From the NCBI RefSeq assembly GCF_002778315.1, contig NZ_NESA01000006.1, positions 1 through 64,000 of the forward strand: a stretch of 64,000 nt of DNA. The letters are read 5' to 3'. Shown here piece by piece: positions 41,970 through 45,070 of the stretch. This DNA is from Limnohabitans sp. JirII-31 (GTDB lineage: Bacteria > Pseudomonadota > Gammaproteobacteria > Burkholderiales > Burkholderiaceae_C). Under the pieces are notes generated by a model. It did not search any database and was not told the DNA's origin. It worked only from the letters and a program-made list of their open reading frames with translations. How positions within the stretch are numbered: position 1 is the first letter of the stretch; the number at the start of each line of letters is the position of its first letter. The translations under genes were made by a program, and so were the position numbers.

Positions 41970-42242
41970 GTGCTACGCCCCCTCCACCTGGTTCTGATTG
42001 CCTTGCTGTTGGTACTGCAAGGCCAGATGTGGTTTGGACGTGGCAGCGTGCCCGATGTCATGCGTTTGCGCCAGCAACTGGCCGAACAAAAACAAAACAA
42101 TGCAGCCGCCCAATTGGCCAATGACCGGTTGGGCGCTGAGCTGCACGACCTCAAAGATGGCCTCGAGATGGTCGAAGAGCGCGCACGCACAGAAATCGGC
42201 ATGGTCAAGCCGAATGAAATTTTTGTGCAGATCGCGAAGTAA
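41970..42242 (+). CDS. ftsB: Cell division protein FtsB
   Basis: A 90-residue bitopic membrane protein of the divisome (FtsQLB complex). It has a short cytoplasmic N-terminus, one membrane helix (about 5-20), then a coiled coil (about 28-72) with the DLKDGLEMVEERARTEIGMV stretch and the conserved end KPNEIFVQI. The start is a GTG at 41970, 12 bases after eno; the position next to eno is conserved in many Gram-negatives. Confidence 0.93.
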   Translation: MLRPLHLVLIALLLVLQGQMWFGRGSVPDVMRLRQQLAEQKQNNAAAQLANDRLGAELHDLKDGLEMVEERARTEIGMVKPNEIFVQIAK

Positions 42243-42258
42243 CTGAGTTGTCCAGGGC

Positions 42259-42720
42259 ATGCAGATCGCCTTGCTCGGTGCCCCACGCACCGGAAAAACC
42301 CAACTGGCTCAAGCGTTGACACGCCATCTGCAGCCACAGCATGTGGAAGTGTTCGACGCGCCAGATATCACGCAACGCCCGCTGGCGCATGCATTCGACG
42401 TCACTTTGTTGTGTGGCTTGGATTTGCCAGACCCTGCTGCGACAGGGCATAAGCGCACAGCGGTTGAACGCGAAGCCATTGACCAACGCATTCGCCACCA
42501 ACTCGATACCGCGCAGATCGCCTACCAAGTGGTCTATGGCGTGGGTGCCGAGCGGCTGGAGAACGCTTTGTTTTGCATTGCACGCCAAGCGCCTGGGTGG
42601 GCCGCCACACCACAGCGCCCGCAAGCCCTGAACCGTTGGTCCGGTCCCTGCGAGCGTTGCGCTGATGGGGACTGCGAGCACCGGCTGTTCATGGACTTGC
42701 TGAGCAACAAATCTCGCTGA
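42259..42720 (+). CDS. P-loop protein with C-terminal Cys/His cluster, function unknown
   Basis: 153 residues. The N-terminus MQIALLGAPRTGKTQLAQAL is a clear Walker A (GAPRTGKT, 7-14), so it likely binds a nucleotide. The rest is short for an NTPase and shows no obvious Walker B. The C-terminus holds CERCADGDCEH: Cys131, Cys134, Cys139 and His141, spaced like a small zinc or iron-sulfur site. I do not recognise a named family. It follows ftsB by 16 bases and is convergent with hslO, a zinc/redox chaperone, seven bases away. Confidence 0.75.
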   Translation: MQIALLGAPRTGKTQLAQALTRHLQPQHVEVFDAPDITQRPLAHAFDVTLLCGLDLPDPAATGHKRTAVEREAIDQRIRHQLDTAQIAYQVVYGVGAERLENALFCIARQAPGWAATPQRPQALNRWSGPCERCADGDCEHRLFMDLLSNKSR

Positions 42721-42727
42721 TGCGGTC

Positions 42728-43702
42728 TCAGTGCAACGACGAAGGGCCTGGCACTTGTTGTTCTGTGCTGGTGAAAATTTGCGCTGCATCCACCGGGTCA
42801 TAGCGGTATTGCTGGCCACAAAAATCACAGCCCACCTCAATGTCGCCGCGCTCGGCCAAGATACTCTCCGCCTCGGCCACGCCCAGGCTGCGAATCATCT
42901 GACTCACGCGCTCACGGTTGCATGAGCAAGCAAAACGCGGGGTTTGAGGCTCAAAACGCACCACGGGCTCTTCCCAGAAGAGGCGCCGCAAGATGGTGTC
43001 TGCGTCCAAGGTCAACAACTCCTCGCGCTTCAAACTGGCGGCCAAAATAGCGATTCGGTTGTAGTCTTCGTTGCGACCAATCTCATCTTCATCGGCAGCG
43101 GTGGAGCGGGCGGACAAGTTGCCCTCGCCCATGACAGGCAAGCGCTGGATCAACAAACCTGCCGCAGTTTTGTCATCGGCTGCCAGCACCAAGGTGGTGT
43201 CGAGCTGCTCACTTTGCAGCATGTAATGCTCAAGCACCTGGTTGAACTGCATGAGTTTTTCGCGTTGATCCCCAAACAACGGAACCACACCTTGATAAGG
43301 CTGTTGTCCAGGCAACTTGTCTTTCGGATCCAGGGTAATGGCGCAACGCCCCTCGTTGTTCTGGTTCACCATCTCGGGCAAGCTGCTGGCGTCCCCAATG
43401 TCACCGACCACTTTGGCGGTGGCACGAAAGCTCAAATCGGGCTGCACTTCAACCACGGCCAGCTTCAAGGGACCATCGCCAAAAATTTGCATCACCAAAG
43501 CGCCATTGAATTTGATATTGGCTTGCATCAGCACAGCGGCAGCGGTCATCTCACCGAGCAAGTGGCGCACGGGCTCAGGATAGGCGCCGGTCTCGACATT
43601 GGCAGCGCGGCGCTTGAGCACCTCTTGCCAGACATCGGTGAGTTGCACCAGCATGCCTCGCACGGGCAAGCCATCAAACAAAAATTTATGGAGCTGAGTC
43701 AT
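42728..43702 (-). CDS. hslO: Redox-regulated chaperone Hsp33
   Basis: A 324-residue holdase that is activated by oxidation. The N-terminal domain has LFDGLPVRGMLVQL. The redox switch at the C-terminus is a CxC plus CxxC pair, Cys259/Cys261 (FACSCNRERV) and Cys292/Cys295 (GCDFCGQQY), which hold zinc when reduced. The ATG at 43702 was preferred to a TTG one codon earlier. It shares one base with the stop of the upstream gamma-carbonic anhydrase gene (TGATG), so the two are coupled. Confidence 0.95.
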   Translation of the reverse strand: MTQLHKFLFDGLPVRGMLVQLTDVWQEVLKRRAANVETGAYPEPVRHLLGEMTAAAVLMQANIKFNGALVMQIFGDGPLKLAVVEVQPDLSFRATAKVVGDIGDASSLPEMVNQNNEGRCAITLDPKDKLPGQQPYQGVVPLFGDQREKLMQFNQVLEHYMLQSEQLDTTLVLAADDKTAAGLLIQRLPVMGEGNLSARSTAADEDEIGRNEDYNRIAILAASLKREELLTLDADTILRRLFWEEPVVRFEPQTPRFACSCNRERVSQMIRSLGVAEAESILAERGDIEVGCDFCGQQYRYDPVDAAQIFTSTEQQVPGPSSLH

Positions 43703-44226
43703 CAAGCGATTTTCTTCAGTCCCAGCTTATGGCGCTGGGCATTGTCAATGTAGTGCTGCGCACTGCGGCGCAGTCCTGCGATTTGCTCAGGGGTGAGCTG
43801 GCGGACCGCCTTGGCGGGGCTGCCCAAGATCATCGATCCATCAGGAAATTCTTTGCCCTCGGTCACCAACGAGCCAGCACCCACCAAACAGTTTTTGCCA
43901 ATCTTGGCGCCGTTGAGCACGATGGCCCCGATGCCAATCAGCGATTCATCGCCAATCGTGCACCCATGCAACTGCACCATGTGGCCCACCGTCACATGCT
44001 TGCCCAAGGTCAAAGGCATGCCCACATCGGCATGCAGCACACTGCCGTCTTGCACATTGCTGCCTTCACCGATGGTGATCTTGTCCGAATCTCCTCGCAC
44101 CACGCTGCTGTACCAGACGCTGCTGTGCGCGCCCATCTCGACGTCACCCATCACTTGTGCGTTGTCGGCCACCCAGGCCGAGTCAGCCACGTGAGGCTTG
44201 AGCGCATCCAATTCATAAACAGCCAT
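43702..44226 (-). CDS. Gamma-carbonic anhydrase family protein (YrdA/PaaY-like)
   Basis: A 174-residue left-handed beta-helix protein built of hexapeptide repeats (about 15-135), forming a trimer with zinc at the subunit interface. The ligands are His65 (SVLHAD), His82 and His87 (GHMVQLHGC). Members may hydrate CO2 or have other roles; activity cannot be read from sequence. AGGA lies seven bases before the ATG at 44226. It is the first gene of a unit with hslO and is divergent from the ferritin-like gene. Confidence 0.88.
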   Translation of the reverse strand: MAVYELDALKPHVADSAWVADNAQVMGDVEMGAHSSVWYSSVVRGDSDKITIGEGSNVQDGSVLHADVGMPLTLGKHVTVGHMVQLHGCTIGDESLIGIGAIVLNGAKIGKNCLVGAGSLVTEGKEFPDGSMILGSPAKAVRQLTPEQIAGLRRSAQHYIDNAQRHKLGLKKIA

Positions 44227-44255
44227 GACACATCCTTTGCATGTTTGGGTAATTT

Positions 44256-44267
44256 CTACAATTGTAG
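44256..44267. promoter_or_regulatory. Perfect palindrome with overlapping divergent -10 elements
   Basis: CTACAATTGTAG is its own reverse complement and contains TACAAT, a good -10 hexamer, on each strand. It lies in the 43-base gap between the gamma-carbonic anhydrase and ferritin-like genes. On the plus strand the ATG is only seven bases after TACAAT, so that transcript could be leaderless. It may be a shared promoter, an operator, or both. Confidence 0.4.
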
Positions 44268-44269
44268 GG

Positions 44270-45070
44270 ATGCAGCTCAGATCCCATGCCCTCCAAGCCC
44301 TTTGTTTGGCACACCCACGTGACAAAGTGGATGCCGTTCAGAGCTTGTGGAAAAAGTCCCCCAGCTGGGTGCTTGACCCAACGCAGTGCATCGCATTGCC
44401 CCCCGAAGAGCTTCTACCAGGGCGTCCCGCGGCACCGCGCTTGGTGCCTCCTAAGCAGGTGGTCACACGTTCGCCCTTTACCCCTCAAGGATTGGCAGGT
44501 TTGATCCATGCCGTGTGTCACATTGAGTTCAACGCCATCAACCTTGCATTGGATGCCGTATGGCGCTTCGACAACATGCCCGAGAACTTCTACACCGACT
44601 GGATGCAGGTGGCCTTTGAGGAGTCACAACACTTTGAGCTGCTTCACACCTTGCTGCAAAGTTTGGGTTACCAGTATGGGGACTTTGATGCGCACGATGG
44701 CTTGTGGCAGATGTGCGAGAAAACAGCGGCCGATGTGTTGGCCCGCATGGCCTTGGTACCTCGTACGCTTGAGGCACGCGGGCTCGACGCCACACCCCTG
44801 ATTCAAAGTAAGCTACGCAAAGCCAACAGTCCTGGCGCTTTGCGTGCGGTGGAGGTTCTGGACGTGATCTTGCGCGACGAAGTCGGACATGTGGCGATTG
44901 GCAACCACTGGTACCGCTGGTTGTGCGCACAACGCGGACTAGACCCTGTCACGCTGTATGGCGAATTGGTGCTGCGCTACGAAGCACCTCGGCTCAAACC
45001 ACCGTTCAATACCGAAGCTCGTAAAAAAGCGGGCTTTACCGATACCGAACTGAATGACCTGTTGGGGTGA
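44270..45070 (+). CDS. Ferritin-like domain protein (DUF455)
   Basis: A 266-residue helical protein. Iron-ligand candidates of a ferritin-like four-helix bundle are visible: Glu86 (HIEFNAI), Glu117/Glu118 with His121 (EESQHFELL), and Glu204 with His207 (RDEVGHVAIG). DUF455 proteins are annotated near MiaE-like di-iron proteins, but their reaction is not known to me. The ATG at 44270 begins at the family-typical LRSHALQALCLA; an ATG at 44225 would overlap the divergent start codon. It is convergent with xerD, 12 bases away. Confidence 0.82.
   Translation: MQLRSHALQALCLAHPRDKVDAVQSLWKKSPSWVLDPTQCIALPPEELLPGRPAAPRLVPPKQVVTRSPFTPQGLAGLIHAVCHIEFNAINLALDAVWRFDNMPENFYTDWMQVAFEESQHFELLHTLLQSLGYQYGDFDAHDGLWQMCEKTAADVLARMALVPRTLEARGLDATPLIQSKLRKANSPGALRAVEVLDVILRDEVGHVAIGNHWYRWLCAQRGLDPVTLYGELVLRYEAPRLKPPFNTEARKKAGFTDTELNDLLG

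Follow-up and report, generated by a model that had tools for sequence, protein, structure and literature searches.

A probable reduced relative of NadR-type kinases with a cysteine tail between ftsB and hslO in Comamonadaceae-like bacteria

The window analysed here is a stretch of 64,000 nucleotides from Limnohabitans sp. JirII-31 (contig NZ_NESA01000006.1, positions 1 to 64,000), in which a short open reading frame lies between ftsB and hslO. The frame begins 16 bases past the ftsB stop and ends 7 bases short of the 3' end of the convergent hslO (Table 1). A sequence-only reading of this DNA had reported a 153-residue frame at 42259-42720 on the forward strand, with a Walker A motif within its first 14 residues and with Cys131, Cys134, Cys139 and His141 close to the C-terminus. 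Reading the frame bore this out: the Walker A motif is GAPRTGKT, the four residues stand at those positions, and Pfam matches to DivIC and HSP33 place the gene between ftsB and hslO, as had been proposed. A promoter scan found no promoter, and Rfam gave no family at its gathering score over window positions 1-64000. The block of hslO with genes for a hexapeptide-repeat protein and a DUF455 protein (window 42728-45070) recurs beside the locus in many relatives.

Table 1. Features of the locus, in window coordinates
Feature	Position	Strand	Basis or remark
ftsB (DivIC)	41970..42242	+	Pfam DivIC 2e-20; upstream neighbour in 53/53 reduced loci
Gap between ftsB and the reading frame, 16 bases	42243..42258	+	pnuC occupies this place in most full-length relatives
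Reduced NadR-type kinase homolog with Cys tail, 153 aa, ATG start	42259..42720	+	Reading of the frame; homologs
Walker A GAPRTGKT (residues 7-14)	42277..42300	+	GAESTGKS/T in most full-length relatives
V29-P35 (VEVFDAP), possible Walker B strand remnant with Asp33	42343..42363	+	Alignment to full-length relatives
Core strand AFDVTLLCGLDLP, residues 46-58, retained from kinase	42394..42432	+	Alignment; model strand 48-52; pN/pS 0.23 (P-loop-bearing reduced pairs)
YQVVYGVGAERLENAL, residues 89-104, final kinase strand and helix	42523..42570	+	Alignment and model; segment 86-110 pN/pS 0.35 and 0.41
Cys tail N125-N150 (Cys131, Cys134, Asp136, Cys139, Glu140, His141)	42631..42708	+	pN/pS 0.19-0.22 in reduced forms
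hslO (Hsp33)	42728..43705	-	Pfam HSP33 2e-66; convergent neighbour

Taken alone, the window protein would be nearly unclassifiable from its sequence. Searches of Pfam, NCBIfam and PDB sequences returned weak or generic P-loop matches only; the Pfam match to AAA_28 (PF13521) reached 26.1 bits against a gathering cut-off of 27 and covered only residues 3-30. A predicted model of the reduced protein (pLDDT 79.8) has strands at residues 2-7, 30-33, 48-52 and 90-92, and its tail is of low confidence, with block means of 54-74. Foldseek with this model was uninformative, the best E value being 0.003, with none at E<=0.001 and NadR at rank 20 (0.045).

The reading frame is nevertheless not a chance one, since homologs were found in 192 of 299 genomes of its family (Comamonadaceae-like bacteria) with a single-sequence query and in 222 of 299 with a mixed profile. 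The mixed profile also found relatives in 46 of 61 genomes of the genus, bringing the total to 264 different genomes with a match (the family and genus samples share four). Many of the relatives are longer, at about 211-232 residues after start trimming (21 proteins), and their typical gene order is eno-ftsB-pnuC-kinase-hslO. The two full-length relatives tested matched AAA_28 at 78 bits (L004) and 75 bits, with an E value of 1e-21, and both matched the kinase part of the NadR model TIGR01526, under that model's cut-off. A full-length profile matched NadR chains among PDB sequences, with RecA chains also scoring via the P-loop; the matches to NadR chains reach no further than position 153 of 214 and stop ahead of the Cys tail. 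Structure search with a model of L004 (pLDDT 84.5) returned NadR (8x7f) first, at an E value of 3e-7, followed by thymidylate kinases. In L004 a gene for PnuC (PF04973, 1e-47) separates ftsB from the kinase gene. PnuC imports nicotinamide riboside (NR), a form of vitamin B3, and its position next to the kinase fits an uptake-and-phosphorylation pair.

According to PMC7221760, the L. lactis NadR protein has its Walker A at 187-195, its Walker B at 254-260 and its lid at 304-318; by motif, the counterparts in L004 are Walker A at 7-14, ADTTPL at 76-81 and WVSDGLQRDG from residue 119. PMC5343134 gives the NadR regulator as absent from Proteobacteria outside Enterobacteriales. Via its full-length relatives, the window protein shares with the ribosylnicotinamide kinase domain of NadR (1LW7, 8X7F, 6GYE; TIGR01526) the Walker A motif, the core strands and the final strand-helix unit, but it has no LREW block, canonical Walker B motif or lid. 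With the full-length, PnuC-linked AAA_28 kinases of the family (for example L004, L030 and, from Ramlibacter aquaticus, L246) it has the locus and the Cys tail in common, and it differs from them in length, in its kinase motifs and in the usually adjoining pnuC. Descent from a NadR-type NR kinase is supported.

Alignment to these relatives indicates which parts were kept. The substrate block with LREW is absent from the window protein, the lid motif (WVxDGLQRDG in relatives) is not recognisable, and the DGxxR pattern occurs in none of 53 reduced forms. The window protein fills 1 of 71 middle positions of the full-length profile, a rough figure in that the alignment left its N-terminus unplaced. 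Of the canonical Walker B motif (ADTTPL in relatives), at most VFDAP with Asp33 would be left. A first alignment sets VFDAP near the Walker B strand, whereas a smaller one does not put it under IADTTP; the half-excised relative L240 reads VFLIADTPALM at this strand. VEVFDAP with Asp33 is likely to be the surviving Walker B strand, and the excision junction may possibly lie at, or just ahead of, V29-P35.

We classified 164 loci, one per genome, out of the 264 genomes in which a match was found; the remaining 100, for the most part with weaker matches, stand outside the counts. By the number of filled middle profile positions, 108 loci are full-length, 53 are reduced (0-41 positions filled, and seven or fewer in 51) and three, truncated by the ends of their contigs, are not counted. 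Two of the latter (L009 and L175) look reduced and carry the tail motif; L149, truncated at the N-terminus, resembles a full-length kinase whose tail is altered and has no motif. Classing by motif had put L092, L095 and L098 among the reduced forms, whereas classing by profile makes them full-length. Intermediates exist: L240 has lost the LREW block and retained ADTPAL, while L130 and L151, counted as full-length, are almost of full length and combine intact tails with degraded catalytic motifs. One reduced homolog, L155, has a long Gly-Ser repeat in mid-protein and an intact Cys tail. Three matches, L117 (G212), L110 (G275) and L102 (G344), contain an internal stop codon, and the open frame of L117 stops ahead of the tail.

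Reduction appears to have been repeated. On a tree of the FtsB, Hsp33 and Eno proteins from 156 loci (103 full-length, 53 reduced), the full-length and reduced states require at least 13 changes (FastTree) or at least 14 (IQ-TREE quick), numbers that could be inflated by transfer of full-length genes, and midpoint rooting gives 20 maximal reduced-only clades. Reduced forms span 19 genera, and both forms occur in g1, g121, g134 and g153. Repeated reduction is supported by these counts, and we infer that its direction was from full-length to reduced. The sequence-only reading had suggested checking synteny with the flanking genes, and here the two sides differ: each of the 53 reduced loci has ftsB upstream on the gene's own strand, with the gene's open frame starting at most 112 bases past the end of the ftsB frame, whereas hslO is not strictly linked: it was seen in 51 reduced loci, lying convergent and no more than 200 bases off in 45 of them and more than 600 bases off or inverted in the other six.

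Loss of PnuC goes with reduction. The fetched locus contained pnuC in 84 of 108 full-length cases and in none of the 53 reduced ones (Fisher 4e-24, relatedness ignored). No PnuC was found in the Limnohabitans sp. JirII-31 genome that carries the window. A genome-wide search with PF04973 over 80 assemblies, 61 of them at least 90% complete, found none in the 55 genomes with a reduced gene (some of these assemblies being incomplete) and none in 16 no-match genomes where ftsB adjoins hslO. Among nine tested genomes whose full-length kinase gene has no pnuC beside it, one had a PF04973 match. Since the other eight lack PnuC genome-wide, kinase and PnuC are not strictly tied, and simple PnuC-dependence does not explain the persistence of these full-length kinases; another source of NR or another substrate is possible. 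The eight loci are L038, L041, L045, L068, L070, L083, L092 and L095 (genomes G264, G338, G267, G298, G302, G091, G223 and G174, respectively; G223 is only 70% complete).

The tail behaves differently from the kinase parts. The pattern C-x2-C-x4-C-[ED] occurs in 100 of 108 full-length proteins and in all 53 reduced ones, the latter found with queries that include the tail, by which tail-less reduced forms could be under-detected. Among the 53, the three Cys and the Glu are invariant, Leu is present in 52, Asp and Phe in 50 each, and the equivalent of His141 in 32; His occurs in 68 of the 100 full-length proteins that have the motif. Thus, of the metal-type cluster proposed earlier, the three Cys stand and the His does not: the four ligands of a Cys3His zinc site are not all conserved, the His varies, so a site of this kind is not strict, and a ligand role of His141 is not obligatory. 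CCHC-type and other small zinc knuckles have a similarly compact CxxC-x4-C spacing. The window tail resembles them in that respect, but it has no Pfam match, its profile found no significant relative in the PDB, and its possible fourth ligand is not conserved. The motif is absent or changed in eight of the 108 full-length kinases. L138, L139, L143 and L250 are full-length kinases with pnuC in which the Cys tail is wholly missing; L248 and L249 are apparently the contigs of L138 and L139 again.

The tail also appears confined to this family. Its profile found no second copy at E<=10 in the organism's own genome. Across 300 genomes of the order it matched 11, eight of them within the family; we read the three outside (E 0.005-0.008) as chance. 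The full-length profile matched 12 of 229 genomes of the class, nine outside the family, and none of these nine matches extends to the Cys positions, nor was such a motif present in the eight readable frames.

To compare rates, we used 13 hand-picked reduced pairs and 26 full-length pairs chosen by genus, none of the latter with a body pS above 0.75. As the distances carry no correction and pS is high, the pN/pS ratios are relative only. In the reduced pairs pN/pS was 0.22 for the tail and 0.50 for the body (Fisher 2.5e-5 on rounded difference counts), at a similar pS of 0.53 and 0.57. No such difference was seen in the full-length pairs (0.34 for the tail, 0.41 for the body, p 0.56). A segment analysis of 12 of the 13 reduced pairs (without L059/L069) gave tail values of 0.21 in five P-loop-bearing pairs and 0.19 in seven P-loop-less pairs. 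All tested pairs had a body ratio below 1, so constraint is not limited to the tail. Judged by these ratios, the tail of the reduced forms is constrained at the protein level, and the best-kept part is the tail, not the ATPase.

Could these genes nevertheless be decaying, the kinase gene eroding after the loss of pnuC and the tail persisting by chance or for a short time? The body evolves fast, with a ratio of up to 0.87 in L094/L145, and the strict P-loop has often gone (see below). Empty sites are also found. Among 30 genomes without a match, the hslO locus was obtained in 27, and ftsB lay beside hslO in 16; 15 of these 16 sites are empty, with 19-150 bases between the matches, and the sixteenth (L220) contains a broken remnant of the tail that has no third Cys. 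In the rest, ftsB lay 1,114 bases away in L209, where no frame of the locus contains such a Cys motif, or was outside the fetched stretch (10 loci). In this small sample of 27 hslO loci, 16 of them informative, no reduced tail-less gene was recognised. Decay is hard to reconcile, however, with a Cys3-Glu motif intact in every reduced form across 19 genera, with the low tail ratio despite high pS, and with frames that stay open for some 130 codons or more where the hslO pS of the pair is 0.24-0.68. We regard decay as unlikely.

The sequence-only reading had taken the P-loop and the Cys tail as a joint unit, and a nucleotide-dependent switch made of the two might be the selected function. In support of this, residues 1-20 have a pN/pS of 0.27 in the five P-loop-bearing reduced pairs, compared with 0.58 in the seven without a P-loop; an Asp33-like Asp, sought by a loose pattern over stretches of unequal length, is found in 15 of 18 P-loop-bearing and nine of 35 P-loop-less reduced forms; and the model's pLDDT exceeds 90 across residues 1-30. 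However, the window protein has no lid motif, and the two motifs are not conserved together: a strict P-loop is present in 107 of 108 full-length proteins but in only 18 of 53 reduced ones, and the other 35 keep the tail, being homologs of the kind that the sequence-only reading had named as speaking against its proposal. A switch of this kind seems quite improbable as the selected function. The P-loop is an inheritance from the full-length NadR-type kinase that erodes after reduction; nucleotide binding may persist in the window's near relatives, since residues 1-20 are still constrained there.

A constraint on the DNA or RNA itself, such as a terminator or overlap with hslO, is very improbable as the keeper of the tail-coding bases: hslO is indeed usually close and convergent, but synonymous divergence in tail and body is similar, the six reduced loci with a distant or inverted hslO still have the motif, and none of the three terminator-like sites seen (1.3 expected) is located at the tail.

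Most simply, the window gene is what remains of an NR kinase gene, with selection acting on its tail independently of the kinase. As a whole, the account we favour, and consider probable, is that a PnuC-linked NR kinase was reduced repeatedly and a selected tail was kept on a stem. The ancestor would have been a PnuC-linked NadR-type NR kinase of the sort that carries, in the Comamonadaceae-like family, an extra C-terminal Cys3 tail. We infer that loss of the PnuC importer then went together with loss of the kinase's LREW block and lid. The product would be a small alpha/beta P-loop remnant, which from its missing parts should not function as an NR kinase. Selection would best retain the tail, CxxCxDxxCE[H]RLFxxLL, which a short alpha/beta stem carries. 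As for what the tail does, we think it most likely, as a guess, that it binds a metal ion or responds to redox, serving as a hook that docks to a partner. Modulation of the tail by nucleotide binding may persist in the window's sublineage, while other lineages would have lost the P-loop.

More tentatively, and with considerable doubt, the 26-residue Cys tail may have originated as part of an NR kinase and survived, as an autonomous functional module, many independent reductions of that enzyme; it may act on the divisome or report NAD/redox or metal state to it. Action on the divisome is suggested by the fact that all 53 reduced copies remain downstream of ftsB; this constant position is consistent with such a link, and also with simply inherited gene order.

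Full-text literature searches, judged by title and the start of the abstract, found nothing on this locus or on a Cys-tailed NR kinase. For the reduced proteins of the Comamonadaceae-like family, neither NR kinase nor generic AAA ATPase is a suitable annotation. Because the same reduction with a kept tail seems to be repeated in related bacteria, the tail probably serves a function in its own right. The apparent pattern is that of an enzyme gene repeatedly cut down as its transport partner was lost, in which the accessory tail, and not the catalytic core, is best kept, and it points to an undescribed function of this tail.
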